Source: Bacteroidota bacterium (GTDB taxonomy: Bacteria; Bacteroidota; Bacteroidia; Chitinophagales; Chitinophagaceae). Taken from it: a stretch of DNA of 33,898 nt. Both the position numbers and the translations under genes were made by a program. Positions 10,060 to 32,482 of the stretch are shown here, in pieces. The stretch covers positions 1-33,898 of the forward strand of contig JANXUL010000199.1 in assembly GCA_025356235.1 (NCBI GenBank), written 5' to 3'. A model generated the notes under the pieces. The model saw only the letters and a list, made by a program, of their open reading frames with translations. It made no database searches and was not told the origin of the DNA. Position 1 is the first letter of the stretch. Each line of letters begins with the position of its first letter.

Positions 10060-10060
10060 T

Positions 10061-10084
10061 GGTAATTACTAATTATTAATTCAC
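10061..10084. repeat. Three-unit heptamer array (AATTNNN) filling the parA-parB gap
   Basis: Bases 10064-10084 form three consecutive 7-nt units that share AATT at the same phase. The units start at 10064, 10071 and 10078, and the last overlaps the parA stop codon. The parA-parB gap (10060-10080) is exactly 21 bases. AATT is self-complementary, so short hairpins are possible, but there is no second arm. This is the smallest member of the array class described in the findings, and because the region is AT-rich its membership is the least certain. Confidence 0.5.
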
Positions 10085-10881
10085 TCTATTATTCTTTCCT
10101 GGTTAGACATCTTCGTCATCCCATTGTTCTGTAAAATTTCTTTGGCCAGGTTGAGGTAGTTGATGGCTCCTTTGCTTTCTGCATCGTATAAGATAACGGG
10201 TTTGCCTACACTTGGGGCTTCACTTAGCCGGGTGTTACGGTGGATGATGGTATCGAAAACCATATCATCAAAATGCCTTCTTACTTCACTTACCACCTGG
10301 TTGCATAAACGTAAACGGCCATCATACATAGTCATTAAAATACCTTCTATCTGTAACTCGGGGTTCAGGCGGTTTTGTACGATTTTAATGGTGTTTAATA
10401 ATTTACCCAGTCCTTCCAATGCAAAAAACTCGCACTGAACGGGCACAATCACACTGTCTGAAGCCACTAAAGAATTTACAGTAATCAACCCCAAGGAAGG
10501 GGAGCAGTCAATAATAATAAAATCATACTTATCACGCACAGGTTCTAATATACCTTTTAAAACATTTTCGCGATTTGGGTAATTGATCATTTCAATCTCT
10601 GCACCCACCAGGTCAATATGTGAAGGGATGATATCCAGGTTAGGCACATCGCTTTTCAGGATTACATCTACGGCCAATACATTATTCACCATACAATCGT
10701 AGAGACTATTGGTAATATTGTGCAGGTCAAAACCAACACCCGTGGTGCTGTTTGCCTGTGGGTCTGCGTCTACTAACAGTGTCTTGAATTCCAACACGGC
10801 CAGGCTGGCTGCCACATTAATGGCAGTTGTTGTTTTGCCCACTCCGCCTTTTTGATTGGCCACTCCGATAATTCTCGCCAT
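10081..10881 (-). CDS. parA: Chromosome-partitioning ATPase ParA/Soj
   Basis: ParA is a nucleoid-bound ATPase whose gradients position the ParB-parS origin complex. I choose the ATG at 10879-10881 (MARIIGVANQKGGVGKTT) over an in-frame GTG three codons upstream. The deviant Walker A motif KGGVGKTT is at 11-18, switch I is around LVDADPQANST, and Walker B is YDFIIIDCSPSLG. No long N-terminal HTH extension is present, so this is the chromosomal (small, type Ib-like) form. It heads the parA-parB-DUF5683 cluster. The C-terminal half has the usual family segments (PVQCEFFALEGL and a DTIIHRNTRLSEAPSVGKP block). Confidence 0.95.
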   Translation of the reverse strand: MARIIGVANQKGGVGKTTTAINVAASLAVLEFKTLLVDADPQANSTTGVGFDLHNITNSLYDCMVNNVLAVDVILKSDVPNLDIIPSHIDLVGAEIEMINYPNRENVLKGILEPVRDKYDFIIIDCSPSLGLITVNSLVASDSVIVPVQCEFFALEGLGKLLNTIKIVQNRLNPELQIEGILMTMYDGRLRLCNQVVSEVRRHFDDMVFDTIIHRNTRLSEAPSVGKPVILYDAESKGAINYLNLAKEILQNNGMTKMSNQERIIE

Positions 10882-10923
10882 AAGTACCACTCCTGACCCC
10901 TAAGGGCTTTTTAAAATGAATAT

Positions 10924-11604
10924 TTATAAATCAATGGTTTCTGCGATAGCCGGTAACAGTAATGTTTTGCCTGCCGTTGCAAAGGCAGTGGTTGCAGCTG
11001 CCATATCTATCTTGATGAAGCCAAATGTATTGTAATGTACCCCTACAATCTTTTTACATTGTAGAAAGTCTGCTGCACGCACCGCATCTGATACATCCAT
11101 CGTAAAATTATCACCGATGGGGAGCACTGAAAAATCCAGTTTGGCCCAGCTGGGTATTAGTTGCATGTCTAGCGTTAAAGCTGTATCACCACTATAATAG
11201 AAATTACCTTCCTCGGAAGTGAAAATAAAACCCATAGGGTTACCACCGTAACTGCCATCCGGCAAGCCGCTGCTGTGCTGCGCCACCACACATTTTACTT
11301 TACCAAAATCGAAATTCCATTTGCCACCGGTATTCATAGGGTGGGTATTGGAAATGCCCTTTTTATTCAGCCACTCATGAATTTCCCAATTAGCTACCAC
11401 CTGGCAACCGGTTCTTTGGGCAATACTGATACAATCCGCAATATGGTCTACATGGCCATGTGATAAGAAAATATAATCCGTTTCAATACTATCTACGCTT
11501 ACATCTTTGGCGAGCTCATTATAGGTGATAAAAGGATCAAAAAGGATTTTTTTACCCTTTATTGATACCTGAAAACAGGAATGTCCATAATAAGTTAATT
11601 TCAT
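10924..11604 (-). CDS. UPF0173 metal-dependent hydrolase (metallo-beta-lactamase fold)
   Basis: The predicted protein is a cytoplasmic metal-dependent hydrolase of the UPF0173/YtkL group, whose physiological substrate is not established. The start is taken at ATG 11602-11604 because the protein then begins MKLTYYGHSCFQV, the conserved N-terminus of the group. A longer frame from a TTG at 11631 is improbable. Metal-ligand motifs are SHGHVDH (48-54), a later conserved histidine in VAQHSSG, and the aspartate of YYSGDTALT. The histidine near the C-terminus (VGVHYNTF) completes the site. It lies about 40 bases upstream of parA on the same strand and may share its transcript. Confidence 0.88.
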   Translation of the reverse strand: MKLTYYGHSCFQVSIKGKKILFDPFITYNELAKDVSVDSIETDYIFLSHGHVDHIADCISIAQRTGCQVVANWEIHEWLNKKGISNTHPMNTGGKWNFDFGKVKCVVAQHSSGLPDGSYGGNPMGFIFTSEEGNFYYSGDTALTLDMQLIPSWAKLDFSVLPIGDNFTMDVSDAVRAADFLQCKKIVGVHYNTFGFIKIDMAAATTAFATAGKTLLLPAIAETIDL

Positions 11605-11887
11605 AATAGCACTTTCATTGAAAGTCGTCAAAAATACACTTTAGGGAACATCTGCCGAAACAATATTATCCAAACAGTGTTATGGATGGAAGGCAAGTTT
11701 TCAACATAGGTAAATTAAGACTGAAATGCTTGCAGGCTATGCTTTTGAGGGTATGCTTCCCTACTTCCTCCTTTAATCGCCCGGCTTCAACCGCTATCTT
11801 TACCCGGTTCTGTTTGTAAAAACAGGCCATTGGTACAATAAATACGGGCAGTAAACGTCTGCCTCTAAAACAAATAAACCCTTTTTC

Positions 11888-13135
11888 ATGAGAAATGCAA
11901 GCACCTGGTGGATTATAGCCGCGATCATGTTACTCTTAGACTTTTATGTTTACCAGGCACTCAAAACCGTTACACAAAATTCAAGCGACAAGGCAAGAAT
12001 GGCTATTCATATAACCTATTGGGTGGTTTCCGGGTTAACGTTGGCAGCATTATTATCGTTCCCGTATATACAGGCTTTGCAAACGTCCAAACTGTTTCGT
12101 AATTATGTATTCGCTATACTGGTAGGTTTATTTTTTGCCAAGCTGGTAGGATCTGTTTTTTTTCTTACGGATGATCTTCGGCGTGGGGCCTTATGGTTAA
12201 TGAGTAAACTCTTTCGCGAAACAGGTGCGCAGTATATGAATGAAGGAAATAGCATACCCCGTTCCGGTTTTCTTAGCTGGCTTGGGTTGGGCGTAGGCAG
12301 TGCTTTATTCGGCACACTCTTATATGGCTTCAGTAACAAATACAATTACCAGCTTAGGAAAGTAAAACTTGCTTTTGCCAACCTGCCCGAAGCTTTTAAA
12401 GGATTAAAAATTATTCATATCAGTGATATACACAGCGGCAGTTTTCAAAATAAAGCGGCAGTAAACCATGGCGTAGATATGATACTGCAACAACAGGCCG
12501 ATCTCGTTTTATTTACAGGTGACCTGGTAAATGACCGTGCAGATGAAATGACTGAGTACATGGACGTATTTAACCGCATAAAAGCGCCCCTGGGCGTATT
12601 CAGTTCACTGGGTAACCATGATTATGGAGATTATGTATCATGGCCTTCGGAAGCGGCCAAAAAAGAAAACTTAGACAGATTAAAGCAGGTGCATACCAAT
12701 CTGGGCTGGCGTTTGTTGATGAATGAACATGTTTTACTAGAAAAAGGCGGTGAAAAAATAGCACTTTTAGGTATTGAAAATTGGGGTGCTAAGGGAAGAT
12801 TTCCTAAATATGGCAAAATGAACGAGGCGTATCCCGGAACGGAAAAAATCCCTTTTAAAATATTGTTGAGCCATGATCCCAGTCATTGGGATGCAGAAGT
12901 AAAAACAAAGTATACAGATATTGACCTGATGCTTGCCGGTCACACCCATGGGATGCAATTCGGATTAGAAAATCCCTATTTCAAATGGAGCCCGGTAAAA
13001 TGGATGTATAAGCAATGGGCGGGTTTGTATGAAGATGGCCCGCAAAAATTATATGTGAACCGCGGCTATGGATTTATCGGCTATCCCGGCAGGGTAGGTA
13101 TTTTACCGGAGATAACGATGATAGAGTTGGTATAG
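11888..13135 (+). CDS. Membrane-anchored calcineurin-like metallophosphoesterase
   Basis: This 415-residue protein has about four N-terminal transmembrane segments (near 5-23, 43-63, 73-93 and 128-148), then a binuclear metallophosphoesterase domain. Metal-binding motifs appear in order: HISDIHSG (Asp180, His182), FTGDLVND (Asp212), LGNHDYG (Asn243, His244), LLSHDPSHW (His329) and AGHTHGMQ (His352, His354). The arrangement resembles the YkuE/YaeI group of membrane-linked phosphoesterases. For those, lipid-linked or phosphodiester substrates have been proposed. The catalytic set is complete, so it is probably active; the substrate is unknown. A heptamer hairpin array begins directly at its stop codon. 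Confidence 0.9.
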   Translation: MRNASTWWIIAAIMLLLDFYVYQALKTVTQNSSDKARMAIHITYWVVSGLTLAALLSFPYIQALQTSKLFRNYVFAILVGLFFAKLVGSVFFLTDDLRRGALWLMSKLFRETGAQYMNEGNSIPRSGFLSWLGLGVGSALFGTLLYGFSNKYNYQLRKVKLAFANLPEAFKGLKIIHISDIHSGSFQNKAAVNHGVDMILQQQADLVLFTGDLVNDRADEMTEYMDVFNRIKAPLGVFSSLGNHDYGDYVSWPSEAAKKENLDRLKQVHTNLGWRLLMNEHVLLEKGGEKIALLGIENWGAKGRFPKYGKMNEAYPGTEKIPFKILLSHDPSHWDAEVKTKYTDIDLMLAGHTHGMQFGLENPYFKWSPVKWMYKQWAGLYEDGPQKLYVNRGYGFIGYPGRVGILPEITMIELV

Positions 13136-13240
13136 TGAGTTGTGAGTAGTGAATTGTGAGTGAAAATGATCTTTTTTAAAAAGATATTTCCTTATTGGCC
13201 ATTCGCCATAGGTCATTTGCAACTCACTACTCACTAACCA
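13135..13240. repeat. Heptamer hairpin array, word GTGARTN (copy 1)
   Basis: Four consecutive 7-nt units of GTGARTN run from 13135 to 13162. They begin on the last base of the metallophosphoesterase TAG stop. The opposite arm (about 13220-13234) has two reverse-complement units. Fourteen of 15 positions of 13142-13156 and 13220-13234 are complementary. The spacer carries a small A/T hairpin (13169-13185). A TGA recurs every seven bases, so stops fall in all three forward frames within 21 bases. The same word is used at 16270-16352. Confidence 0.8.
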
Positions 13241-13347
13241 CAATCCCATTTGTTAAGACTTCTTTAACACATACATGGATCATTTTTAATGTGTTTATAA
13301 TTTTTGGCATGGTCTTGGAAATATGTTAGGAAACAAAATAACATCTT

Positions 13348-13938
13348 ATGAAACGATTATTACTGGCAGCTACAGCCATTATTGTATTTACAGCAGCCTC
13401 TTATGCACAGGGAGGCGTAAGGTTAGGCATTAAATTAGGTACGAACCTGAATAAAATAGAAGGTCAATCTTTTAAAGATGGCTTTGACCTCTCTTACCAT
13501 GCGGGTGGATTTGCTGAAATTGACTTTAATAAAAAATGGGGTATCCAACCCGAAGTTTTATGGAACCAGACTTCAGGCAGGCGCTCTAATTTGAATACCT
13601 TATATACATCTGTTGCCAATCCTAATGGAAGCGAGAAAATTAAACTTAATTACCTCTCTATTCCTGTGCTTCTCCGTTATAATATCGGCAGTATTTTAAG
13701 CCTTAATGCTGGACCACAATTTGGTATTTTACTCAGTGAGGATAAGACATTCCTGCAGAGCGGGCAATCCGCTTTTAAGAATGGCGATTTTTCGATGGTT
13801 GCAGGCGCGCAGCTTAATTTTACATTCCTCAGAGTATACGGACGTTATAATATTGGGTTGCAGAATATCAATGATATTGATAACAAAGAAAAATGGACGA
13901 ACCAACAGATACAGTTGGGACTTGGCTTAAGGTTTTAA
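13348..13938 (+). CDS. Small outer-membrane beta-barrel protein (PorT/OMP_b-brl type)
   Basis: This 196-residue protein has a signal peptide (about 1-20, ending ASYAQG). A glycine-rich strand RLGIKLGTNLNKIEG follows, then alternating amphipathic strands (SYHAGGFAEIDF, WGIQPEVLWNQTSG, LNYLSIPVLLRYNI and a SLNAGPQFGILLSE strand). It ends in an aromatic residue (LGLGLRF). This is the pattern of the abundant outer-membrane beta-barrel family of Bacteroidota that includes PorT-like proteins. The function is unknown. It is a single-gene unit, bounded downstream by a heptamer hairpin that starts right after its stop. Confidence 0.82.
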   Translation: MKRLLLAATAIIVFTAASYAQGGVRLGIKLGTNLNKIEGQSFKDGFDLSYHAGGFAEIDFNKKWGIQPEVLWNQTSGRRSNLNTLYTSVANPNGSEKIKLNYLSIPVLLRYNIGSILSLNAGPQFGILLSEDKTFLQSGQSAFKNGDFSMVAGAQLNFTFLRVYGRYNIGLQNINDIDNKEKWTNQQIQLGLGLRF

Positions 13939-13939
13939 A

Positions 13940-14008
13940 TGCTCAACGCAAAACGCTCAACGCAGAACAGGTTTCGCGTTGAGCGTTTTTGCATTAAGCG
14001 TTTTGCGC
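13940..14008. repeat. Heptamer hairpin array between convergent genes, word CGCNNAA
   Basis: Four 7-nt units (starting 13940, 13947, 13954, 13961) share the pattern YGCNNAA. The opposite arm contains the complementary TTNNGCG words up to about 14008. The inner stem is a perfect 14 bp (13950-13963 with 13976-13989, AAAACGCTCAACGC) with a 12-nt loop. A looser outer stem contains G-T pairs and one bulge. It fills the space between the stops of two convergent genes (13938 and 14014) and can serve as a bidirectional terminator. Confidence 0.8.
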
Positions 14009-14013
14009 CTACA

Positions 14014-16233: not shown

Positions 16234-16269
16234 GCATAGCTGTTTATGTTCATTCAAAAGGAAGGGGGG

Positions 16270-16352
16270 GTGAATCGTGAATCGTGAGTTGTGAGTGGTG
16301 AGTAGAATGAAAAGATTCTTAATATAGTTCCTACTCACGATTCACAATTCAC
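16270..16352. repeat. Heptamer hairpin array, word GTGARTN (copy 2)
   Basis: Five consecutive 7-nt units of GTGARTN occupy 16270-16304. Three reverse-complement units occupy 16332-16352 and end directly at the glmS stop codon (16353-16355). Nineteen of 20 positions pair between 16270-16289 and 16333-16352. It uses the same word as the array at 13135 but lies between two genes on one strand (glmS and DUF4954). Read on the glmS strand, it begins with the first base after the stop, as copy 1 does for its own gene. Confidence 0.82.
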
Positions 16353-18191
16353 TTATTCCACAGTAACACTCTTCGCCAGATTGCGGGGTTTATCAACGTC
16401 CAGACCTTTGGCAAGCCCAACATAATAACTTAATAATTGTAAAGGGATAACGCTTAACAAGGGAGCAATCACTTCATCTGCATCGGGTACCAGCATTACA
16501 TCATCTGCCATACCGGGTATAATTTCGTCGCCAGCTGTGGCAACGGCAATTACTTTTCCTTTTCTGGCTTTTATTTCCTGCACGTTAGATACGATCTTCT
16601 GGTAATAAGAATCTTTGGTGGCAACAAATACCACGGGTAATTTTTCATCTACCAAAGCAATAGGCCCGTGTTTCATTTCAGCGGCAGGGTAGCCTTCGGC
16701 ATGTATATAAGAGATCTCTTTTAATTTTAAAGCGCCTTCTAATGCTACCGGGAAATTATATCCGCGCCCAAGGAAAAGAAAATCAGTTGCATCTTTATAT
16801 TTTATTGCGATGCGCTCTATGTTTGTTGTGTCTTTTAATATTTCTTTTACTTTTTCCGGAATAGCTTCCAGCTCCTGCATCAGTTGCATATAACGTGTTT
16901 CATCAATGGTTCCTTTCGCATAGCCTATTTTTAAAGCCATCATCGTGAGTACAGCCAGCTGTCCCGTAAATGCTTTGGTGCTGGCTACACCAATTTCATG
17001 GCCGGAATGTGTGTAGGCACCGGCATGACTTAGCCTGGCTATGCTACTGCCAACGGCATTTACTACGCCAAAAATGAAAGCTCCTTTTTCTTTGGCACTC
17101 TCAAGCGCTACCAGGGTATCCGCTGTTTCGCCACTTTGTGATATGGCAATGATCACATCTCCCTGATGAATTACCGGGTTCCTGTAACGGAATTCCGATG
17201 CATATTCTACTTCTACCGGTATTCGGCATAATTCTTCAATCATGTATTCGGCAATAAGCCCTGCATGCCAGCTGGTGCCGCATGCAACGATGATAATACG
17301 CGGTGCTTTTATAAATGCTTCCAGGTTATTTTCAATGCCGCCCATCATTATCTGGCCACTTGAAGTAAGAAGCCTTCCCCGTAAACAGTCGAAAATGGTT
17401 TCGGGCTGTTCATGAATTTCTTTCAGCATAAAATGGTCGTATCCACCTTTTTCAATAGCGGCCAGTTCCATATCTAATTTGGTAATGAAGGGGGTTTGTT
17501 TTTCGTTACCCAGGTTTTTTAAAATCAATTCATCGGGGCGAACAATGGCTATTTCATAATCGTTTACATACACTACTTCTTTGGTGTATTCGATGATGGG
17601 GGATGCATCACTGGCTAAAAAATGTTCACCTTTACCAATGCCGATAACCAAGGGACTCCCTTTTCTGGCAGCGATAATGGTATCTGGATCTTCATTAGAG
17701 ATCAACAGGATGCAATAAGCGCCCACTATGCGTTTAAGGGCAATGCGCAAGGCCTCTTCTACAGAACAACTGTTATTTTTTTTGATGTCCTCAATGAAGT
17801 TCAGAAGGACTTCGGTATCCGTATCGCTTGTAAAGTGATACCCTTTTGAAAGTAACTCCTGTTTAATCTGTACATAATTTTCTATAATGCCATTGTGTAT
17901 CATAGACAACTCGCCACTTTGTGATTGATGGGGATGCGCATTTCTATCACTGGGTTCACCATGCGTAGCCCATCGCGTATGCCCGATACCAATATGCCCG
18001 TGCAGGTCTTTACCTAATACACTTTCTTCCAGTTCGGCTACTTTACCTTTCTTTTTGTAAACATTCAGCTTCCCTTCATTAAGTAAGGCCACCCCGGAAC
18101 TGTCGTATCCGCGGTATTCCAAACGTTTTAATCCTTTAATAATTACGGGATATGCTTCCCTTGGACCGGTATAACCTACAATTCCACACAT
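16353..18191 (-). CDS. glmS: Glutamine-fructose-6-phosphate aminotransferase (isomerizing)
   Basis: GlmS makes glucosamine-6-phosphate from fructose-6-phosphate and glutamine, the committed step to UDP-GlcNAc, peptidoglycan and lipid A. It is full length at 612 residues. Cys2 is the glutaminase nucleophile (MCGIVGYTG), with HTRWATHG (71-78), NG (100-101) and Asp126 completing the type-II glutamine amidotransferase domain (about 1-225). Two SIS domains follow, starting with ACGTSWHAG (303-311) and including AISQSGETADT. The C-terminal DKPRNLAKSVTVE is the conserved tail that closes the active site. No glmS ribozyme was recognised in the 107 bases upstream. The divergent GNAT gene starts at 18299. 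Confidence 0.97.
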   Translation of the reverse strand: MCGIVGYTGPREAYPVIIKGLKRLEYRGYDSSGVALLNEGKLNVYKKKGKVAELEESVLGKDLHGHIGIGHTRWATHGEPSDRNAHPHQSQSGELSMIHNGIIENYVQIKQELLSKGYHFTSDTDTEVLLNFIEDIKKNNSCSVEEALRIALKRIVGAYCILLISNEDPDTIIAARKGSPLVIGIGKGEHFLASDASPIIEYTKEVVYVNDYEIAIVRPDELILKNLGNEKQTPFITKLDMELAAIEKGGYDHFMLKEIHEQPETIFDCLRGRLLTSSGQIMMGGIENNLEAFIKAPRIIIVACGTSWHAGLIAEYMIEELCRIPVEVEYASEFRYRNPVIHQGDVIIAISQSGETADTLVALESAKEKGAFIFGVVNAVGSSIARLSHAGAYTHSGHEIGVASTKAFTGQLAVLTMMALKIGYAKGTIDETRYMQLMQELEAIPEKVKEILKDTTNIERIAIKYKDATDFLFLGRGYNFPVALEGALKLKEISYIHAEGYPAAEMKHGPIALVDEKLPVVFVATKDSYYQKIVSNVQEIKARKGKVIAVATAGDEIIPGMADDVMLVPDADEVIAPLLSVIPLQLLSYYVGLAKGLDVDKPRNLAKSVTVE

Positions 18192-18298
18192 ATTAACTTA
18201 CAGTTTATCAGATTAAATTAATGGCAAGATTACTTATTTTGCACAAAAGCACGTGGTATTTAAACGATTAAACAGTTTTTAAAAGTATAATTTTCGAA

Positions 18299-20329: not shown

Positions 20330-20340
20330 GGGTGCAATTT

Positions 20341-20376
20341 AATTAGTAATCGGTAATTAAAAATCAGTAATTACCG
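20341..20376. repeat. Five-unit heptamer array (AATYNNN) upstream of mgtE
   Basis: Bases 20341-20375 are exactly five 7-nt units, all starting AATT or AATC (20341, 20348, 20355, 20362, 20369). A perfect 9-bp stem forms between 20351-20359 and 20368-20376 (CGGTAATTA / TAATTACCG) with an 8-nt loop. It lies in the 5' leader of mgtE, in the divergent region, not at a gene end. Confidence 0.7.
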
Positions 20377-20384
20377 GGGACAAA

Positions 20385-20472
20385 CATCGAATATTGAACA
20401 AATAATTTTGAATGATGAGGTGAAAGTCACTTCGATACTTACAATTCTTTGTTCAATATTCGATATTCAATC
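20385..20472. repeat. Heptamer hairpin array (NNNYGAA / TTCRNNN) in the mgtE-SET divergent region
   Basis: The left arm has 7-nt units ending GAA (CATCGAA 20385, TATTGAA 20392, TTTTGAA 20406). The right arm has in-phase units starting TTC (20431, 20445, 20452, 20459, 20466). The outer stem is a perfect 17 bp, 20386-20402 with 20448-20464 (ATCGAATATTGAACAAA), around a 45-nt spacer. It ends about 30 bases before the SET gene start and could affect transcription or leader structure on either side. Confidence 0.78.
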
Positions 20473-20504
20473 CCTAGCTTTCTTTCCGCTACCTTCACTG
20501 CATT

Positions 20505-20888: not shown

Positions 20889-21006
20889 GGATTAATTACG
20901 AATTATTAATTACGAATTACGAATTCGTAATTGATAACCCGTAATTCGTAATTGATAATTTGTAATTGATAACCTGCAATTCGTAATTGATAATTCGTAA
21001 TTAACC
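20889..21006. repeat. Sixteen-unit heptamer array (AATTNNN) filling a convergent gap
   Basis: From 20894 to 21005 the sequence parses without a single slip into sixteen 7-nt units. Fourteen begin AATT and two begin AACC. Ends pair strongly: 20892-20918 with 20978-21004, 26 of 27 Watson-Crick and one G-T. The element occupies the entire space between the TAG stops of two convergent genes (SET at 20886-20888; tolC at 21007-21009). On each strand the stop is followed by GG, giving mirror-image ends. Confidence 0.92.
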
Positions 21007-22287
21007 CTACCAATACGCATACCCCATCAACCGCGCTAACTCTACTTTAGCCAAACAAAGCTGGTATTCATATTGTAATTTGGTGAGTGCAGCACGTTGC
21101 ACGTTTGTACTTGCATTGGTAATTTCTAAATTAGTGCCTGTGCCACTTTTAAAACGGTTAGAAGCCAATGCCTGGGCAGCCACTGATTGATCTACCTGGC
21201 CCCTTGTATTTTTTATCCTTTCTAAATTGGTGGCAATATCTGTTAATGCCTGTTCAATGTCTTTTTTATAGTTGCTACTTAAGGTTTCAACAGCCATCTG
21301 GTTTTGTTTAATGATATTTTGTTGCAGTTTCTGCTGCTGTTTATTTTTTCCGCCATTATATATGGGCATAGTAAAAGAAACACCGGCTAAATAATTAAAC
21401 CGCATATCGGAAATATAAGGTACATATCCATTTTTAATACCCGCTGCTGCTTTTAGTCCTACCATCGGCTTTTCAGCAATTTTAGTGATGGCCAGGTCAC
21501 TCTCAGATTGTTTGATCTTGTCTTTGGCAAGAACAAAATCCACATTGTTTTCCTGTGCCAATGCCAATGCACTATTCGCATCAGTAAGGTTGATATCGAA
21601 ATCAAATGCTTTGCCGGCACTTAGTTTGATGCCGGTCGTATATTTCAGCAGGTTCAATTGCTTTTGAAGGCTATTGGCCAGATCAACTTTCCGATTGTCT
21701 TCATTATCAATGGTAGCCAGGATGTTCAGCAGGTCTATCCTCAATGCTGTACCGTTCTTTAACTGGCTTTCCACCATTCTTTTATTATCACTCAAAAAAG
21801 TCAATACACTGTCCTGTATACTGATCGTTTTTTGCAGGTAAACAATATTATAGTAGATGTTAGCTACCTGGTAAGCTAACTGCGACTTTACATAATCTAC
21901 ATTGTGATTGGCATATTGCAGGTCGTCTTTTGATCGTTCAATATTTGCCTGCAGCCTTCCAAAATCAAACAAGGGATAGGTTGCATTAACTGCGCCTCCT
22001 AAATTATGAAGAGGTGCAAACTGAAAATTATTACCGTTAAGTGGGATTTCTATTTTAGGCCTTACATAGGCATACGATGCATCTGCCGTAACATCAGGGT
22101 ATTTGTTTAATCCTGTTAAGGTTAGTTTTTCCTGAGCGGTAGCTACCGTATTTTGTACTTCCTTCACTCTCGGAAAGTAGCTGAATGATTGACTGATCAA
22201 ACCTTTCAGTTCATTGTTCACCGTTACCTGTGCCTGCGAAAACAGAACAGTAACGATGCTGCCTAACGTAATAAATATCTTTTTCAT
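21007..22287 (-). CDS. TolC-family outer-membrane efflux protein
   Basis: This 426-residue trimeric outer-membrane channel is the outer part of a tripartite pump. A signal peptide (about 1-20, ending FSQAQ) is followed by two homologous outer-membrane-efflux repeats. These are rich in long helices with the usual LTLTGLNKYPDVTADASYAY and YPLFDFGRLQANIERSKDDL beginnings (first repeat) and VGLKAAAGIKNGYVP / MPIYNGGKNKQQQKLQQNII (second repeat). It is the last gene of TetR-EmrA-EmrB-TolC, about 100 bases after emrB, and should pair with the adjacent EmrAB. The array described at 20889 abuts its stop. Confidence 0.92.
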   Translation of the reverse strand: MKKIFITLGSIVTVLFSQAQVTVNNELKGLISQSFSYFPRVKEVQNTVATAQEKLTLTGLNKYPDVTADASYAYVRPKIEIPLNGNNFQFAPLHNLGGAVNATYPLFDFGRLQANIERSKDDLQYANHNVDYVKSQLAYQVANIYYNIVYLQKTISIQDSVLTFLSDNKRMVESQLKNGTALRIDLLNILATIDNEDNRKVDLANSLQKQLNLLKYTTGIKLSAGKAFDFDINLTDANSALALAQENNVDFVLAKDKIKQSESDLAITKIAEKPMVGLKAAAGIKNGYVPYISDMRFNYLAGVSFTMPIYNGGKNKQQQKLQQNIIKQNQMAVETLSSNYKKDIEQALTDIATNLERIKNTRGQVDQSVAAQALASNRFKSGTGTNLEITNASTNVQRAALTKLQYEYQLCLAKVELARLMGYAYW

Positions 22288-23971: not shown

Positions 23972-24014
23972 ACAATTTTTTTTCTGCGTCTTTTAAGAGA
24001 AGGCAGGCAAGGGG

Positions 24015-25058: not shown

Positions 25059-25086
25059 ATGATCGGTTTGAGATTTGTAGTTTATG

Positions 25087-25127
25087 GTTAGTTGTTTAAT
25101 ACTACTTGCTTTGTTAGTTGTTTAATA
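25087..25127. repeat. 15-bp direct repeat at the tetR-emrA junction
   Basis: GTTAGTTGTTTAATA occurs twice, at 25087-25101 and 25113-25127, a spacing of 26 bases. The second copy covers the tetR stop codon. Read on the gene strand, each contains TATTAAACAA, which also occurs in the tetR operator (25758-25767). This may be a local duplication or a pair of operator half-sites. Confidence 0.55.
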
Positions 25128-25734
25128 AGTAGGAATGCATAATTTGTTTCAGGTGTTTGATAAGCCGGTCTCTGAATGATCGATCAGTATAGGGGTCGAA
25201 ATCGTTTTCGCGGTTAATCAACATAACACAGAGTGCTTTTGAAAGCATCACCTGGTTAATGGTTCCTATTAAAGTGGCCATGGTAAGTTCGGGATCTACT
25301 TTTTTAAATACCTTTTTTTTGATGCCCTGTTCAATAATGCTTCTCAATGTTTTAGTGTTCCTTACAAATACCTTAATAATGTTTTCATGCATTGCTTCCC
25401 TATCGCCCATTAGCAGTTCCTGGTGCAATACGCGGTGAAAAGATGGGTTGGACAGGATCTTAGCAACATAATTTTCTATAATGGCGTCTATCTTTTCAAT
25501 TTCAGTAAGCTCGGTATTGGCTTCTATCTCATCTAATTTTCCCCTCATGAAAGAAGCTTTGTATTCTACGATAGCCTCAAAAAGCTTGTCTTTCGAGCCA
25601 AAATAATAGTTCACCATGGCCACATTCACATCCGCGCGGGTGGCCAGGTCACGAATGGAACTACCCTCAAAACCCTTTTCGGCAAAAAGTTCTATGGCCG
25701 CATTCATAATATGTTCTTTCTTATCGGTAATCAT
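25114..25734 (-). CDS. TetR-family repressor of the efflux operon
   Basis: This one-component DNA-binding repressor senses a small ligand. I use ATG 25732-25734 (MITDKKEHIMNAAIELFAEK). A TTG in frame at 25767 would put the start inside the operator, so it is rejected. The N-terminal HTH contains GFEGSSIRDLATRADVNVAM followed by VNYYFGSKDKLFEAI. The C-terminal ligand-binding domain has about 150 residues, with CefD/AcrR-like helices (VLHQELLMGDREAMHENIIK). It is the first gene of the operon and reads away from the GH1 gene. Two overlapping palindromes 25 bases upstream of its start are the obvious autoregulatory target; drug export is then derepressed when ligand binds. Confidence 0.92.
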   Translation of the reverse strand: MITDKKEHIMNAAIELFAEKGFEGSSIRDLATRADVNVAMVNYYFGSKDKLFEAIVEYKASFMRGKLDEIEANTELTEIEKIDAIIENYVAKILSNPSFHRVLHQELLMGDREAMHENIIKVFVRNTKTLRSIIEQGIKKKVFKKVDPELTMATLIGTINQVMLSKALCVMLINRENDFDPYTDRSFRDRLIKHLKQIMHSYLLNN

Positions 25735-25758
25735 GCAATTGGATTTGAAAACGCAAAT

Positions 25759-25793
25759 ATTAAACAAATGTTTGAATTAAACAAACGTTTAAT
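25759..25793. promoter_or_regulatory. Tandem palindromic operator upstream of tetR
   Basis: Two palindromes follow each other 17 bases apart: ATTAAACAAATGTTTGAAT (25759-25777) and ATTAAACAAACGTTTAAT (25776-25793). The shared pattern is ATTAAAC-N4-GTTTRAT, with the second copy perfect over seven bases per arm. They lie 25-59 bases upstream of the tetR start in the tetR-GH1 divergent region (25735-25852), the place expected for TetR autoregulation. Control of the GH1 gene from the same site is possible but not shown. Confidence 0.75.
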
Positions 25794-25852
25794 TGATTTT
25801 TTAATCAGCCGCTTAGAAAATAACAATAGCTTAATCAGGTATTTCAACTTAT

Positions 25853-27238: not shown

Positions 27239-27276
27239 GTTTCTTTTACTAAGTTTGATCACTTAAAAATCAAACT

Positions 27277-28941
27277 ATGTTTCGCTCTGCTTCAATCATC
27301 ATAATTGCCTGCATCAGCTCACTCATTTCGGCACAAACAGTTACCATTCCTGCGTATACCGGTTATGCAGTTCCTGCAGAAACGGATGAATCTTCCCTGT
27401 TTTCAGAAAAAAATGGCCTTCAGCAATGGAGCAATACAGGACAGGCAATCAGTTATTTTTTTTATATCCGTAAAGCAGGTAACCTCTCGGTCAGTATTAA
27501 TGCAAAGAATGCGGTGGCAGGCAGTACCCTTAGACTTTCTGTGGGAGGGAAAGTATTTTTAGTTACGATTCCCCTGTCAAAAAATTTTAAAACAATTAAA
27601 GCCGGATTGGTTACCATAAAAGATAGTGGCTTTTACCAGCTTACGATTGCTGCCGTAAAAAAAACCGGTAAAAACATTGCTGATATCCAGTCAATACAAC
27701 TAACGGGTTCGGCAACTGAAAATATGCACTTCAATACGAAAACCAGGCGCAACGCGGCTTCGGTGCATCTGCGTTATCCATTGGCAGATTCATTAAAAAA
27801 AACAGTTGCTTTTTATAATGAGATCACTATTCCAAACGGTTCCGATCATTTATATAGCTATTATATGGCTTGCGGTTTTGCCCGTGGTTATTTTGGAATA
27901 CAGGTAAACAGTGCTACAGAACGCCGCGTAATTTTTTCAGTATGGGATGCAGGTAAGGAAACCGCTGACCGGAATAAAGTAGCCGATTCAAACAAAGTAC
28001 AATTGATGGCCAAGGGCGACGAAGTTTTTGCTGAGGATTTTGGTAATGAAGGTACCGGTGGTCATAGCCATTGGGTATATCCCTGGAAAACAGGTCAAAC
28101 ATATAAATTAATGGTAACTGCATTAACAGATAGCGCCACACAAAGCACTATTTATACCGGTTATTTCTTTCTGCCTGAAGTACAAAAATGGAAACTCATA
28201 GCGAGCTTCAAAGCACCGAAAGACGGGCAATACCTTCGAAACCTCTATTCTTTTAATGAAAATTTCTTGGGTACTAATGGACAACTGCAACGAAAAGCCT
28301 TTTTCGGAAACCAATGGGTACAGAAAGAGAACGGACAATGGGTAGAATTAATGCAGAGCAACTTTTCTTATGACGCTACAGGTAAAGCCGGCGACAGAAT
28401 AGATTATGGTGCCGGTGTATTGGATGGGAAATTTTATTTGTGGAATGGTGGATTTCAAAAAGCTAATACAACATATTGGGAGATACTCTCCAGACCGGCT
28501 GCCAATCAAAAACCTGTTATTGACTGGACAAAGAATGCAGACAGTGCAAAACAGGCTGTCCGCGACCTGCAAATGATTCTTGATGCGGTTAAGGCAAAAC
28601 AGATTGATACAACGGGTAGTAAGGACGGTGTGTATTACCAAATTTTAAAAGAAGGTACCGGCGATTATGTTTCTATAAATGATACCGTAACTGTCTTTTA
28701 TAAAGGATATCTTTTAAAGGATGGAAGTGTTTTCGACCAGACAAAAGAAAACCCCGCAACATTTCCGCTGAAAAGATTAATCAAAGGGTGGCAGGTGGCT
28801 TTGCCTATGTGTAAAGTAGGTGGTAAGATCAGGGCATTTATTCCTTCTGGTCTGGCATACACTATCCGCAGCCGCAGCAAAGCTATCCCTCCAAACAGTG
28901 TATTGGTATTTGATGTGGAAGTAGTGCGTGTGAAGAAGTAA
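27277..28941 (+). CDS. DUF5077/DUF3472-like exported protein fused to a C-terminal FKBP-type peptidyl-prolyl isomerase
   Basis: This is a three-part exported protein of 554 residues. A signal peptide (1-19, ending SLISAQ) comes first. A DUF5077-like beta-sandwich (about 22-145) follows, then a DUF3472-like region (about 165-345) containing YMACGFARGYFGIQVNSATE, GTGGHSHWVYPWKTGQTYKL and AKGDEVFAEDFGNEGTGG. The C-terminal FKBP domain is about 451-554: VTVFYKGYLLKDGSVFDQT, LIKGWQVALPMCKVGGKIRA and FIPSGLAY, where the usual AYG reads AYT. The DUF3472 part looks like a carbohydrate-binding or lectin-like fold. The isomerase domain suggests an exported folding helper or a substrate-associated chaperone. 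Domain names for the first two regions rest on recognition without a search. Confidence 0.75.
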   Translation: MFRSASIIIIACISSLISAQTVTIPAYTGYAVPAETDESSLFSEKNGLQQWSNTGQAISYFFYIRKAGNLSVSINAKNAVAGSTLRLSVGGKVFLVTIPLSKNFKTIKAGLVTIKDSGFYQLTIAAVKKTGKNIADIQSIQLTGSATENMHFNTKTRRNAASVHLRYPLADSLKKTVAFYNEITIPNGSDHLYSYYMACGFARGYFGIQVNSATERRVIFSVWDAGKETADRNKVADSNKVQLMAKGDEVFAEDFGNEGTGGHSHWVYPWKTGQTYKLMVTALTDSATQSTIYTGYFFLPEVQKWKLIASFKAPKDGQYLRNLYSFNENFLGTNGQLQRKAFFGNQWVQKENGQWVELMQSNFSYDATGKAGDRIDYGAGVLDGKFYLWNGGFQKANTTYWEILSRPAANQKPVIDWTKNADSAKQAVRDLQMILDAVKAKQIDTTGSKDGVYYQILKEGTGDYVSINDTVTVFYKGYLLKDGSVFDQTKENPATFPLKRLIKGWQVALPMCKVGGKIRAFIPSGLAYTIRSRSKAIPPNSVLVFDVEVVRVKK

Positions 28942-29061
28942 CCATACTTCAAGAGCGAGGTTTACTATTGCGAAACAGCAGACTTACAGAAAATGCACGG
29001 GCTAAATAGTTCTTTAGTTGTAGTGTATATTTTGTAATTTGATTAATTAATTCCCCTTTAC

Positions 29062-29529
29062 ATGAGAACAGCCCGACAGCTATCTATTTTTTTGCTGGCT
29101 ATATCAGGTATTTCAGCTTTGTATAGCGGATACCAAATGATCAGTGACCCAACAGGTAATTCGCTCGGGCTACCTTTTTATTTACTGAATGGCTCTGCTT
29201 TTTCAGATTACTCCCTGCCGGGTTGGGTGATATTGGGTACAGTGGGTGTATTCAGTTTTGTTATTATTCTTTCCATCATCAAAAAAATTAAAACCTATTC
29301 TTTCCTCATCATACTGCAGGGTGTGATCATTTGTATCCTGATCATTTTACAGATGATATTATTGAGTGAAACATTTGTTATTCAATATGTTTCCCTGATA
29401 TTGGGCGGAGCTTTAATTGGATTGGGCGCATTGCAATACCAGCGAAGGATAGCTGTTGAAGCGGAGCACAAAGCAAATCCGCACGTAGCACCCAAGAGCC
29501 ATCATCATAAACACAGGAAGCAGAAATAG
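29062..29529 (+). CDS. Small four-helix membrane protein with histidine-rich C-terminal tail
   Basis: I do not recognise this 155-residue protein. It has four predicted transmembrane segments (about 7-24, 54-74, 80-103 and 108-126). The first two are separated by a polar loop with DPTGNSLGLPFYLLNGSAFS. The cytoplasmic or periplasmic C-terminal tail is highly basic and His-rich (AEHKANPHVAPKSHHHKHRK), possibly metal-binding. The start follows a 120-base gap after the FKBP fusion gene. It reads in the same direction as that gene but the spacing suggests its own promoter. No enzyme motif is visible. The reading frame ends TAG, followed within seven bases by a heptamer array. Confidence 0.6.
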   Translation: MRTARQLSIFLLAISGISALYSGYQMISDPTGNSLGLPFYLLNGSAFSDYSLPGWVILGTVGVFSFVIILSIIKKIKTYSFLIILQGVIICILIILQMILLSETFVIQYVSLILGGALIGLGALQYQRRIAVEAEHKANPHVAPKSHHHKHRKQK

Positions 29530-29535
29530 ACTATG

Positions 29536-29598
29536 TTGAATTTTGAATGTTGAATTTTAAATTAATTCAATCATTCAAAACTTAAAATTCAAAATAAC
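29536..29598. repeat. Heptamer hairpin array (TTGAATN / NATTCAA) between convergent genes
   Basis: Bases 29536-29598 parse into nine 7-nt units. TTGAATN words start at 29536, 29543 and 29550, and their complements start at 29564, 29571 and 29585 region. The best stem pairs 29541-29556 with 29564-29580 (one bulged base). It sits between a plus-strand stop (29529) and a minus-strand stop (29602), so it could terminate both. Confidence 0.78.
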
Positions 29599-29601
29599 CC
29601 C

Positions 29602-31098
29602 TTACTCTGCCAATAATTTCAGGTACACTCCATTGGTCCAGCCAAATCCATCCTGGTTGGGATATTCACCACCGCCAGCTTTACTTTCAGTATCGGTTAC
29701 ATTGTATTTCTCCATCATTTTACCGGTAGCAGCAAATACTTTTTCATTATTGTGCATCCAGTTTTGTCTTATTTTTTTGGCAATGGTACGATGGCCATAA
29801 GGAACTTTTTTCAAACCATGGTAAGCTATCCACTGTAACGGTGCCCAGCCATTGGGTGCATCCCATTGCTGGCCGGTTTTGTTAAGGGTAGTGAGCAGCC
29901 CACCGGGTTGTAAAAATTTTTCTTCAATTATCCTAGCAACTTTAATAGATTGTTCAAAATCAGCAACAGGAATAAATAAGGGAAAAGCACCTGCTAATGT
30001 GTAGGAAGCAGATTGTTGCTGATCTTTAAATTGATAATCAAAATAAAAACCTTTCTCTTCGTTCCAGCAATATTGTTGTATGGCTTTTTTTCGTTGACTT
30101 ATTTTCTGAAGAAATTTTTGAAATGTTAGCTGATCCTGGTTTTGATAAATAACGGAAAGCATTGTTTCCATAAAAAGCAATAAACAATTCAGGTCAACCG
30201 GTATAAGATTGGTTGTTTGAATGGTTTCCATAGTCAGTTCATCACGAAACCAACGGCTGCTGAAATCCCAGCCCGATTCGGCTGCGGCGCGGATATGGCG
30301 GTATATAACGGCAGGGTCTTTACCTGATTTTTTAGCAATATGGGTATCTTCTATAAACGCTTCGGGCCTTGGTGTATCCTGGTCATCCCAATAACGGTTA
30401 AGAATACTGCCATCCTGCATGAGCACCACACGGCGATGGGTAGGGTTGGTTGCTGTAAGCGTTTCTGCCCCATCCATCCAGAAGCCGTATTCTTTTTCTA
30501 ACGGTGTTTGGTATTTTAACAGAATAACATCCCCTTTTTCTTCCATTAGAACGGATACCATTAAAGCAAAAAAAGGAGGTTGTGAACGGCCGAGATAATA
30601 AGTGCGGTTACCATTGGGAATAAAACCTTCCCGGTTAATCAGGTAAGCGAAATTATCTACCATGTTTTGAATAATGTCAACTCTTTTGGATACCTGCAGG
30701 CCAAGCATGGTAAAATAACTGTCCCAATAATATACTTCTCTGAAACGTCCCCCTGGAACAATGTATTGATAAGGCAGGGGAATTAAGGTTCCGCCCTTCT
30801 GGTCAGGTGTTCTCGTTAACACATTCCATAATCCGGTTAGATGTTCGTGTAAGGATTTATCGGCAGAGGAATATTCGTTATCAGATGCTGCTGGCAGGAT
30901 AAAATTTTCGGTAACGAAAGTTTTCAGATCAAATCTCTGTTGGTTCTTTGCCAGTTCATATTTCAACAGGGTATCTTTCACTGTGGAACGGGGGATACAG
31001 TCTACAAAAAATTTCGAGTCGGAAAAAATCTCAGCTAACTGTACATCTTCATACAGTGGTGATAGGCTTTCAATATAAAAATGGGGCAGGATAGGCAT
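29602..31098 (-). CDS. Trehalase, GH37 family
   Basis: This enzyme hydrolyses trehalose to two glucose units by inversion. It has 498 residues and no signal peptide, so it is a cytoplasmic (TreF-type) trehalase. The first GH37 signature is VPGGRFREVYYWDSYF (114-129) and the second is QQWDAPNGWAPLQW. Predicted catalytic residues are Asp278 in ESGWDFSSRW and Glu478 in GGGEYPNQDGFGWTN, corresponding to Asp312 and Glu496 of the E. coli periplasmic enzyme. It is the last gene after an MFS porter (8-base gap) and fits a trehalose uptake-and-hydrolysis unit. It is not the phosphotrehalase TreC, which belongs to GH13. Confidence 0.95.
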   Translation of the reverse strand: MPILPHFYIESLSPLYEDVQLAEIFSDSKFFVDCIPRSTVKDTLLKYELAKNQQRFDLKTFVTENFILPAASDNEYSSADKSLHEHLTGLWNVLTRTPDQKGGTLIPLPYQYIVPGGRFREVYYWDSYFTMLGLQVSKRVDIIQNMVDNFAYLINREGFIPNGNRTYYLGRSQPPFFALMVSVLMEEKGDVILLKYQTPLEKEYGFWMDGAETLTATNPTHRRVVLMQDGSILNRYWDDQDTPRPEAFIEDTHIAKKSGKDPAVIYRHIRAAAESGWDFSSRWFRDELTMETIQTTNLIPVDLNCLLLFMETMLSVIYQNQDQLTFQKFLQKISQRKKAIQQYCWNEEKGFYFDYQFKDQQQSASYTLAGAFPLFIPVADFEQSIKVARIIEEKFLQPGGLLTTLNKTGQQWDAPNGWAPLQWIAYHGLKKVPYGHRTIAKKIRQNWMHNNEKVFAATGKMMEKYNVTDTESKAGGGEYPNQDGFGWTNGVYLKLLAE

Positions 31099-31106
31099 GA
31101 CTGATA

Positions 31107-32357
31107 TTATTGATGGCCAGGATTGGCTGCCTTGAATTTATTCTGTAATCGTTTAAATATAAACAGGCAGGTGATCAGTATAGCCATCGGTATCAGCGAA
31201 AAATAAAATGCTTTCTGCCCGCCATAACTTTCAAAAATATGACCTGTAATGATGGAGCCGGTAGTACCACCCAGTGCTGAGAATATGATGATAAGCCCAG
31301 ACATGGCCCCATGTTTTTGAACAGGTAACGTACTCAATATGATAGAATTTACTGCGGGGTAAATAGGTGCGATCAATAAACCGATTAAGGGAAAAATAAA
31401 AGCGGCAACAGGTGCATTGCCCCAGCCGGTAATAGGTTCACCAGATACTTTTTGTGCCAGGGGTATCGCTATTAACACCAAAGCGGCAGCCAATACCAGG
31501 CAGGAGGCCAGTACTAAAAACCAGTTCATTTTTTTGAGTAGTATCCCGGCCAGAAAACGCCCCAATGCGGTAGAACCGGCAAGTATGCTCGCCATTTGTA
31601 TACTAAGTGCGGCAGGTAAAAGCAATACTTTATTATTAAAGGTAGGTAGCCAGCTCATAATGCTTTGTTCAATCAACACATAAAAAAAAGCACAAAAAAC
31701 AAATACGAGCACAATGGGGGATACCATCAGTTTAAACATTTGCAGGAAGTCGCCTGCCAGTGAAGTGGGTTGTTGGTTTTTTATGGATGATTCGTCCAAA
31801 GGGGCCGCCAACAATAGTATAAACGCAAGTAACGAAATGGCACCGAGTAAATAATATACTTTGAGCCATTCGGTAGAGTGCGGATTATTATTATCTACAA
31901 AGGAGCTGAAAATAAAATAGCCCGTAAGAATGCCTACCATGAAAAACGATTCGATAAAATTCATCAGGCTAATATGTTCTTTCTCGTTTTTGGTTACCAG
32001 GCCAATGGTACTGTACACCGACATTTTAATCAATGCAAAACTGGCTCCTACAGCTGCAAATAATAATTTAGTCGCTCCGAAGCCGGTAGTAAAAGGCATG
32101 ATACAACAAACTACTGTAATAAAACCCAATGCAATCAGCATGGCATTTTTATAACCGATCCGGGTTATATAAGAAGAAAGTAAAAAAGAAACGATGGCGA
32201 TACTGAAATCTTTAAAAGCTTCCAATACAGAAGCCGATCCCTGCGAGATACCATAATTATTCTGCACCTGTAAAATAACCGTTCCCACACTGTTCAGTAA
32301 AATGGCAAATACAAAATAGTTAAGAAACAGCGAAGCTTTGATCTTCCAGTTTTTCAT
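31107..32357 (-). CDS. MFS transporter, probable sugar (trehalose/disaccharide) porter
   Basis: This inner-membrane carrier of the major facilitator superfamily has 416 residues and about 12 hydrophobic helices. A central loop at about 185-200 (DESSIKNQQPTSLAGDF) separates the two halves. The first half has an RIGYKNAMLIALG segment equivalent to motif A (66-78). The second half has ALGRFLAGILLKKMNWF at the corresponding position. It resembles the sugar-porter clusters near FucP-type transporters. It overlaps the trehalase operon with only eight bases between them, so trehalose or a related glucose disaccharide is the natural substrate guess. That substrate is an inference from position, not from residues. 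Confidence 0.8.
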   Translation of the reverse strand: MKNWKIKASLFLNYFVFAILLNSVGTVILQVQNNYGISQGSASVLEAFKDFSIAIVSFLLSSYITRIGYKNAMLIALGFITVVCCIMPFTTGFGATKLLFAAVGASFALIKMSVYSTIGLVTKNEKEHISLMNFIESFFMVGILTGYFIFSSFVDNNNPHSTEWLKVYYLLGAISLLAFILLLAAPLDESSIKNQQPTSLAGDFLQMFKLMVSPIVLVFVFCAFFYVLIEQSIMSWLPTFNNKVLLLPAALSIQMASILAGSTALGRFLAGILLKKMNWFLVLASCLVLAAALVLIAIPLAQKVSGEPITGWGNAPVAAFIFPLIGLLIAPIYPAVNSIILSTLPVQKHGAMSGLIIIFSALGGTTGSIITGHIFESYGGQKAFYFSLIPMAILITCLFIFKRLQNKFKAANPGHQ

Positions 32358-32367
32358 TTGTATAGTT

Positions 32368-32482
32368 GGGGTTATAGGGGTTAAAAAAGGTTAAAGGGGT
32401 TAAAGAGGTTAAATAAATAATATACTTGTTTAACCTCTTTAACCTTTTTAACCTCTTTAACTTCTTCAGTTTCTTCAACATC
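32368..32482. repeat. Nonamer hairpin array (GGTTAAANN) between lactonase and MFS genes
   Basis: The left arm has five units built on GGTTAWA (32368-32413, nominal period 9, with one inserted A). The right arm has six in-phase 9-nt units from 32429 to 32482, built on TTTAACCTC, with decay in the last two. A perfect 16-bp stem pairs 32398-32413 with 32429-32444 around a 15-nt loop. It lies between two genes on the same strand, so it can act as a partial terminator or transcript-stability element. Confidence 0.85.

Follow-up and report, generated by a model that had tools for sequence, protein, structure and literature searches.

Why should one short anchor recur every seven bases, and then return as its own reverse complement, in gap after gap of a bacterial genome? 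The question is raised by a stretch of 33,898 nt from a Chitinophagaceae bacterium of the phylum Bacteroidota (assembly GCA_025356235.1, contig JANXUL010000199.1), referred to here as the window, in which nine intergenic arrays had been proposed, eight with a period of 7 nt and one with a period of 9 nt. The window is contig 75 of a draft genome (G000; 3.55 Mb in 317 contigs, 98% complete), and its DUF4954 protein has its best named matches in Chitinophagaceae and other Bacteroidota, many of them metagenome-assembled and including Sediminibacterium. According to the original prediction, the arrays share a design and not a sequence. This is partly borne out: they form a dispersed intergenic class defined by a 7-nt period, inverted arms and a place on the stop-codon side of genes. 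The heptamer palindrome class is confirmed and is wider than the window; it is a variant of repeats that are already known and unexplained. In the Chitinophagaceae its arrays are palindromic, mostly begin with the purine-rich arm, adjoin stop codons and are quick to change between sister species.

Each gap of the window that holds an array was scored at lags 5–12, with 1000 Markov shuffles of its own sequence as the control. The proposed period was the top lag in all eight gaps, which hold the nine arrays (p ≤ 0.001 to 0.025). Periodicity is strong in gaps 16234-16352 and 20889-21006 (score 19.5 each, shuffle maxima 9.0 and 11.5) and very strong in gap 32358-32495, where the predicted period of 9 scored 31.0 against a shuffle maximum of 12.5. 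Gaps 29530-29601 (score 14.0) and 13136-13347 (9.5) are good cases (p = 0.002 each), and 13939-14013 (p = 0.025) and 20330-20504 (p = 0.017, two arrays scored jointly) are weak ones. Gap 10060-10080 is also weak, with p = 0.004 yet a length of only 21 nt. Inverted arms are listed for seven of the nine arrays and folding gives a 10-bp stem at 20341, which leaves only 10061 with none; all but the smallest array can therefore form a hairpin, as had been claimed. Folded as RNA (one strand or both), eight arrays reach z-scores of −3.2 to −9.0, and the 21-nt tract at 10061 has +0.6. The hairpin at 20341 is modest, and those of the other arrays are strong. The predicted contact with stop codons was also recovered: array 13135 begins within a TAG, the elements at 13939, 16352, 20889 and 29532 lie 0–6 nt from a stop, and two arrays stand, as described, in a divergent leader near the mgtE start. 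The window has no Rfam match at the gathering score.

The period is not peculiar to the window. An excess at lag 7 over shuffled DNA, on which the prediction had been staked, was found in the part of the genome sampled: in an unselected set of G000 sequences (contigs 1-47, up to 20 kb each, 458,697 bp), 16 segments in 41 kb of intergenic DNA pass at lag 7 versus 0.3 after shuffling. Other lags in the same intergenic DNA give 0–2 (lags 3–6, 8–13 and 15) or 7 (lag 14), and coding DNA gives 10 at lag 7, five of which recur at every lag and in shuffles. Across 80 loci from relatives (1.41 Mb), lag 7 yields 41 arrays in intergenic DNA, spread over 20 loci, and 10 in coding DNA; the other intergenic lags give 11 (lag 8), 34 (lag 14), 5 (lag 15) and 0–1 (the rest). 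The longest lag-7 segment among these loci is a 344-nt period-7 array (CATTGAC/TATTGAC) at 10200-10543 of locus L060, from Chitinophagaceae bacterium CAN_BIN01.

Hairpins were counted in gaps of 35–900 bp as inverted repeats of at least 14 nt with 7-periodic arms; shorter and longer gaps are omitted here and from the placement, purine-order and stop-frame counts below. Such elements occupy 63 of 524 gaps in G000, a set that takes in contigs picked for matches to the window word GTGARTN. They occupy 75 of 203 gaps in a 300-kb block of Chitinophagaceae bacterium 26-R-25 (G040) and 48 of 189 in a 300-kb block of its sister species Pinibacter soli (G041), both Pinibacter-type genomes. The figure for 78 other loci is 32 of 710, L082 and L092 having been dropped from the 80 because they are parts of G040 and G041. 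Two shuffles each of the G000 and G040 gaps gave none (0/1048 and 0/406). Among inverted-repeat arms, period 7 and its double, 14, are dominant; period 8 comes second, mainly in G040 and G041, and the rest are rare.

The elements have a median size of 88 nt and a median loop of 37 nt. Of 218 elements, 194 begin with the purine-rich arm, 15 have the opposite order and nine are ties; the elements being palindromic, the rule applies to both strands. It is equally strong in divergent gaps (28 purine-first, 3 pyrimidine-first, one tie), where there is no gene end, and therefore looks intrinsic to the element. Placement is asymmetric. An element lies within 15 nt of 180 of 245 stop-codon sides versus 38 of 191 start-codon sides; these distances are approximate, since gene borders come from a simple open reading frame (ORF) caller (longest non-overlapping ORFs, starting at the first ATG). 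Of 127 elements in tandem gaps, 94 lie within 15 nt of the stop, where uniform placement would give 45–77, the range being set by how much leader is kept free. Occupancy falls from convergent (59/304) through tandem (127/947) to divergent gaps (32/375; convergent versus divergent, p = 4e-5). Mismatches between arms, read on the sense strand in tandem gaps, comprise 68 G.T, 91 A.C and 179 others; there is no G-U excess, and selection at the RNA level on arm pairing is not seen in these G.T and A.C counts.

The prediction that words are locus-specific needs to be recast. Words do change between genomes, sometimes at the same orthologous site, but each genome also has families of its own: words are common within a genome and different between genomes. 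The window arrays at 13135 and 16270 share GTGARTN, and those at 10061, 20341 and 20894 share AATTA-type words. GTGARTN has 121 overlapping exact three-unit matches in the whole of G000 versus 2 for the reversed pattern; TTGARAR has 984 in G040 (control 85), 358 in G041 (control 15) and 0–1 in six other genomes. GTGARTN was absent from all 24 same-genus genomes of one draw and present in 4 of 15 genomes that belong to other families of the order. Runs of four units occur in 33 of 395 genomes of the phylum, G000 included (41 versus 0 reversed). The reversed pattern is as widespread (36/395), with many of its bearers in one family (f33), so the phylum tally reflects patchiness and not a special status of GTGARTN. 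In that draw the same-genus genome G447 has 95 matches and G214 none, and one same-family genome has 174. By lag-7 arrays, G447 has 29 in 220 kb (6 of 11 stretches picked for GTGARTN matches), G214 has four, of the word TGAAGAG, in 80 kb, and G010, again of the same genus, has none in the 100 kb sampled. The reversed pattern reaches tens of matches in several f33 genomes (e.g. G158, G285, G438), and another 7-nt word therefore seems abundant there.

Orthologous gaps show how fast the elements come and go. G040 and G041 were aligned over 300 kb, in which long high-scoring segment pairs are mostly 78–93% identical. Under the hairpin rule, 164 orthologous gaps (one further gap was masked) divide into 27 with the same word, eight with different words, 25 occupied in G040 only, three in G041 only and 101 empty in both. 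The two species thus differ in presence or word at 36 of 63 occupied gaps, some of them through decay below the threshold. Lag-7 arrays alone give 40 in both, 28 in G040 only, 7 in G041 only and 90 in neither. Filled and empty sister gaps measure, for example, 132 versus 31, 131 versus 25, 185 versus 21 and 65 versus −1 nt, the last at site 102128, where the sister genes overlap; at this site and at 17942, 257975 and 268266 the two versions differ by the element. Even where the word is shared, the loops fail to align (normalised score < 0.3) in 20 of 27 pairs.

Comparison by eye shows that in relatives several of the window sites have no array or have one of another word. The glmS–DUF4954 gap is 118 nt long with its element in the window and 0–53 nt long without one in all ten relatives. 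The convergent gap 20889-21006 holds an AATTACG array in the window, an AATTAAG-like array in L031, an AAGT-type array in L097 and a plain hairpin in G010. At 13939-14013, L031 and L032 have AACGCTT-type hairpins, five further relatives have single hairpins and one has a 7-nt gap; several of the single hairpins look like bidirectional terminators. The AGTAATT-type tract at 20341 is also found in L031 and L097. The parA–parB gap, 21 nt in the window, carries 7-periodic hairpins of other words in the 80–89-nt gaps of G447 and L032, and in seven other relatives it lacks a hairpin and measures 2–41 nt or is a 4-nt overlap. Arrays 29536 and 32368 had no orthologous gap among the relatives compared. 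As a separate observation, gaps of G040 (L171-L180, L211-L215) and G041 (L201-L210, L216-L220) also hold 8-mer palindromes, TTTGAAAA, and Pinibacter-type gaps hold tracts of period ~8–10, such as GATTTTCAT and CGCAAAGG; these at times replace a heptamer element at the orthologous site.

How the elements are made can be approached through their parts. Arms recur genome-wide and loops are mostly unique. Window segment 16236-16355 has 42 other matches in its own genome, only three of which span the loop (72–76% identity). Segment 13162-13222, a loop with the edges of its arms, has no second copy there, the next best match having an E value of 0.19. In the DNA sampled from G000, one of 24 loops has another copy, as does one of 24 control slices. 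An element's own two arms match each other better than they match same-word arms elsewhere (mean ranks 0.70, 0.59 and 0.68; n = 26, 50 and 19). Different arrays share mixed triplets of units more often than under permutation: 730 versus 478 ± 49 for TTGARAR and 383 versus 264 ± 40 for AATTARG in G040, 100 versus 62 ± 11 in G041 and 12 versus 6.2 ± 2.4 in G447. Pairs of identical neighbouring units are depleted in G000 (16/129 versus 25.5 ± 2.7), in G041 (19/52 versus 24.2 ± 2.4), in both G040 sets (AATTARG, 39/107 versus 47.5 ± 3.6; TTGARAR, 62/158 versus 69.9 ± 4.2) and in a sixth, overlapping genome-word set; G447 has them in excess (24/109 versus 18.4 ± 2.7). Near 12875, 118224 and 279100 of the G040 block, a hairpin core, GGTCGAAC..GTTCGACC, recurs inside several TTGAAAR elements, and a GAAGTCTATGACATGGGACTTC-like tract does likewise; the arrangement resembles small repeats embedded in heptamer arrays.

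Triplet sharing, the depletion of identical neighbours and the likeness of an element's own arms point to the copying of multi-unit tracts combined with fold-back. We tentatively favour a reading in which the elements are a class of palindromic repeats, small and non-coding, that spreads by copying arm tracts and is tolerated at gene ends, some members perhaps acting as terminators. An element consists of two inverted arms of one heptamer word family around a usually unique loop. During replication or repair, a run of several arm units would be copied out of one array and into a different gap through template switching or ectopic conversion. Fold-back copying would create or refresh the second arm; arms would then be common and loops would not. 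Elements would persist at gene 3′ ends because insertion costs least there. Convergent elements standing where relatives have terminator-like hairpins may terminate transcription, as a by-product and not as the cause of the design.

Several results weigh against the copying of arm tracts. Loops recur in 18 of 59 cases in G040 and 10 of 36 in G041, although not above control slices (23/59 and 13/36), and the arrays of G000 show no excess of shared triplets (12 versus 14.1 ± 3.4). A copying intermediate, an enzyme or a target duplication was not found. Only 11 of 28 presence differences between G040 and G041 coincide with a gap that is shorter by 30 nt or more on the empty side, and some copies scored as absent are, by eye, visibly degenerate versions under the threshold; the raw count therefore overstates insertion turnover. 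The stop-side excess persists even if the 50 nt ahead of the start codon are barred to placement (94/127 versus 76.9 expected), so tolerance alone may not account for it. The purine-first order is stronger in heptamer elements but not peculiar to them, inverted repeats lacking the 7-nt period having the purine-rich arm first in 151 cases, the pyrimidine-rich arm first in 40 and ties in eight, and copying leaves this rule unexplained. Finally, a constant position with an altered word could also mean selection for a hairpin at that position.

Such selection is the core of an alternative that we regard as possible but doubtful, in which the elements are selected bidirectional terminators or hairpins that protect 3′ ends, the heptamer period being a fast way to make and refresh long stems. 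The contact with stop codons, the high occupancy of convergent gaps and the strong folding into stable hairpins at gene ends all fit, and at 13940 and 20894 the elements occupy the place of relatives' plain hairpins. Xanthomonas transcripts have been reported to start or stop more often in quadruplex-forming GGGANTN repeats than in non-forming ones (PMC4692102). Classical terminators, scored separately from heptamer elements, are rarer beside arrays in G000 and 78 relatives' loci (convergent, 5/27 versus 75/197; tandem, 3/56 versus 97/656), but they are not rarer in G040 (7/20 versus 7/21; 12/44 versus 11/79) or in G041 (3/12 versus 5/27; 8/27 versus 12/85), and the evidence that arrays substitute for terminators is contradictory between genomes. 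Selected terminators would also sit uneasily with the lack of a sense-strand G-U excess, with a purine-first rule as strong in divergent gaps, with a same-genus genome that is array-free over 100 kb (G010) and with the array hairpins seen by eye in G447 and L032 inside the parA–parB gap, a probable operon. Termination or 3′-end protection, one of the three roles offered in the original prediction, is possible for convergent elements. A protein, DNA- or RNA-binding, that reads one heptamer per monomer would explain the fixed 7-nt register, and MacGregor refers to a cold-shock protein as binding heptamer repeats (PMC4679880). We consider such binding arrays, likewise among the roles first suggested, highly improbable: the words differ widely among and within genomes, and the apparent grammar they share vanishes once related words are removed.

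Mobility of another kind is offered by miniature transposons, similar to miniature inverted-repeat transposable elements (MITEs), repetitive extragenic palindromes (REPs) or REP doublets (REPINs), with the heptamer arms as recognition sites of a transposase acting in trans. Sites cleanly filled in one sister species and empty in the other, genome-wide word families and the patchiness within one genus (95 GTGARTN matches in G447, none in G214) would all follow, and some Pinibacter AATTAAG elements seem by eye to share a degenerate core. The transposase search covered the PF01797 family, the Y1 domain of REP-associated tyrosine transposases (RAYTs). It passes the cut-off in six of the seven array-bearing genomes searched, the best copy in G040 being broken, and in just one of six same-genus genomes without GTGARTN. 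The exception is G000, which, at 98% completeness, has one broken match below the cut-off; conversely, the array-free G010 has a good match. Transposition in trans therefore stays a candidate because of the six other genomes. We nevertheless think it unlikely, given that loops are mostly unique, that both the word and the length of the arms vary at a given site and that no target duplication was noticed by eye at filled and empty sites. The arms are inverted repeats as in MITEs; the G000 sample shows no conserved core, and some Pinibacter cores recur. No conserved palindrome of the REP type was seen, loops being mostly unique and words variable, the GTAG/CGTC tag itself not having been searched for. 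Plain replication slippage of locally seeded heptamers, with palindromes arising by chance or by quasipalindrome correction, is the remaining alternative and corresponds to the slippage-driven tract of the original prediction. Heptamers are described as the most abundant intergenic tandem repeats across a wide range of prokaryotes (PMC6344855), and slippage was proposed for them by Mrazek (2007), as cited in PMC4679880 and PMC4692102. Slippage would enrich identical neighbours, so their depletion in four of five genome-word sets speaks against it, G447 alone favouring it; moreover, the same words lie at many unlinked places. We judge plain slippage very unlikely.

Filamentous cyanobacteria carry short tandemly repeated repetitive (STRR) sequences, direct heptanucleotide arrays in intergenic DNA in which small dispersed repeats are embedded. 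The present arrays are likewise heptamer tandem arrays in intergenic DNA, in excess over chance. Bidirectional intrinsic terminators place a purine-rich first arm and a pyrimidine-rich second arm at gene ends; here, the stems are far longer, are built of tandem units and are present in divergent gaps too. The closest precedent comes from Xanthomonas, with its inverted arrays of the heptamer GGGANTN (Rehm et al., 2015; PMC4692102). As described there, GGGAATC/(GGGANTN)n arrays are intergenic and often form convergent inverted pairs (70 in Xcc, 75 in Xac), lie on the coding strand, either overlapping a stop codon or 0–50 bp beyond it, are under-represented in divergent gaps and vary in length and sequence between species; their function is reported as unknown. 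Both systems have a 7-nt unit with variable positions, here GTGARTN, in intergenic inverted pairs beside stop codons. Unlike the Xanthomonas repeats, which have one G-rich word, were studied as G-quadruplex formers and are reported to share most sites between two species (PMC4692102), the present elements have several C-poor words per genome, most of them without a G-tract, as well as word replacement at some orthologous sites and filled and empty sites. Within the window, GTGARTN, AATTACG, TTGAATT and AACGCTC have no run of three G, and the period-9 array has GGGG. TAACTGA arrays, described in five Bacteroidetes (MacGregor, 2015; PMC4679880), are similar in being intergenic heptamers of patchy spread, with stop codons noted in all frames; they are, however, described as direct repeats, in BOGUAY mostly just upstream of starts and with one indirect repeat, in contrast to the inverted pairs of other words at stop codons found here. 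A few inverted heptamer pairs only are mentioned for Anabaena (PMC4692102), heptamer-derived satellites have been described (PMC6749651), and intergenic heptamers are reported to be without known function (PMC6344855). REPs are described as having a conserved palindrome tagged with GTAG or CGTC, and those with GTAG often come with a RAYT (PMC3733652); REPs, REPINs and MITEs share with the present elements the form of short dispersed extragenic palindromes and possible effects on transcript ends (PMC3733652). In contrast to REPs and REPINs, here the heptamer arms alone recur, and G000 shows no intact Y1 transposase.

The novelty first claimed for the arrays is accordingly narrower. The titles and abstracts listed, mostly outside the subscription literature, yielded no description of palindromic heptamer arrays in Bacteroidota, but the inverted pairs of Xanthomonas and the TAACTGA arrays of five Bacteroidetes were known from the reports cited above. 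The main value lies instead in the purine-first palindromic architecture at stop codons, in the turnover of words at orthologous sites and in genomes in which the process can be followed. Array-rich genomes (26-R-25, Pinibacter soli, G447) and the array-free G010 (100 kb sampled) make the origin of such repeats a comparative and experimental question, and how they arise and spread becomes testable. We speculate, while regarding it as distinctly unlikely, that one common process lies behind the Bacteroidota palindromes, the Xanthomonas GGGANTN pairs and perhaps the cyanobacterial arrays: a copying reaction that advances by an inherent step of seven nucleotides, has purine-first polarity and deposits inverted arms beside stop codons. 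If so, the arrays that a genome already has would dictate its word, which would drift between lineages, and the mobile element would be defined by its architecture and not by its sequence.

Coordinates of the repeat features in the window and their settings.
Positions	Feature	Setting
10060..10080	Small AATTA-type period-7 tract, no hairpin (z +0.58)	Between parB start and parA stop
13133..13163	5′ arm, word GTGARTN	Overlaps stop codon of metallophosphoesterase gene
13213..13248	3′ arm of the GTGARTN element begun at 13133	
13937..14013	AACGCTC-type hairpin	Fills convergent gap between outer-membrane barrel gene and DUF4954 gene
16269..16303	5′ arm (on + strand), five GTGARTN units	glmS–DUF4954 gap
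16333..16352	3′ arm of the 16269 element	Terminates right at glmS stop codon
20330..20382	AGTAATT-type tract	Beside mgtE start, divergent leader
20383..20467	Hairpin, weak TTCAATA periodicity	Same divergent leader as the tract at 20330
20889..21007	AATTACG/CGTAATT palindromic array	Fills convergent gap between SET-domain gene and outer-membrane efflux gene
29532..29596	TTGAATT/ATGTTGA palindromic array	Fills convergent gap beside trehalase gene
32368..32466	Period-9 GGGGTTAAA/TTTAACCTC palindromic array	Between lactonase-like gene and MFS gene

At 20383-20467 the folding is strong (z −7.0) but the heptamer pattern is loose. The flanking genes with Pfam matches are ordinary: parB, parA, metallophosphoesterase, outer-membrane barrel, DUF4954, glmS (assigned from its SIS and glutamine amidotransferase domains), mgtE, SET-domain, efflux outer-membrane, trehalase, major facilitator superfamily (MFS) and lactonase-like genes. 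The 155-aa gene at 29062-29529 has no Pfam match.

Three further candidates were tried and rejected. Were the words stop-codon cassettes that close all frames, an arm should exceed column-permuted words in stop frames, but the counts are near the permuted ones: 2.16 versus 1.94 ± 0.10 in G000, slightly high (the highest of 100 permutations reached 2.31), and 2.20 versus 2.21, 2.35 versus 2.31 and 1.77 versus 1.77 in the other three sets. A universal word grammar fades as related words are thinned, from 3.20 bits for 80 words (permuted 2.62, sd 0.09) to 3.10 versus 2.75 for 39 words at a distance of at least 2 (two of 60 permutations as high) and 2.72 versus 2.85 for 14 words at a distance of at least 3, where the signal is gone. 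Loss of SbcCD, a hairpin nuclease, as a permissive cause is neither necessary nor sufficient. SbcD is below the cut-off in the array-bearing G000, G447, G356, G040, G041, G048 and G366, but also in G010 (array-free in 100 kb), in G214 and in nine other same-genus genomes without GTGARTN, and it is present in the GTGARTN-carrying G026, G035, G039, G168 and G187. Among these few genomes, and for this one word, the genomes richest in GTGARTN (G000, G447, G356 and G366) have no SbcD above the cut-off, and the five that bear SbcD have fewer matches.

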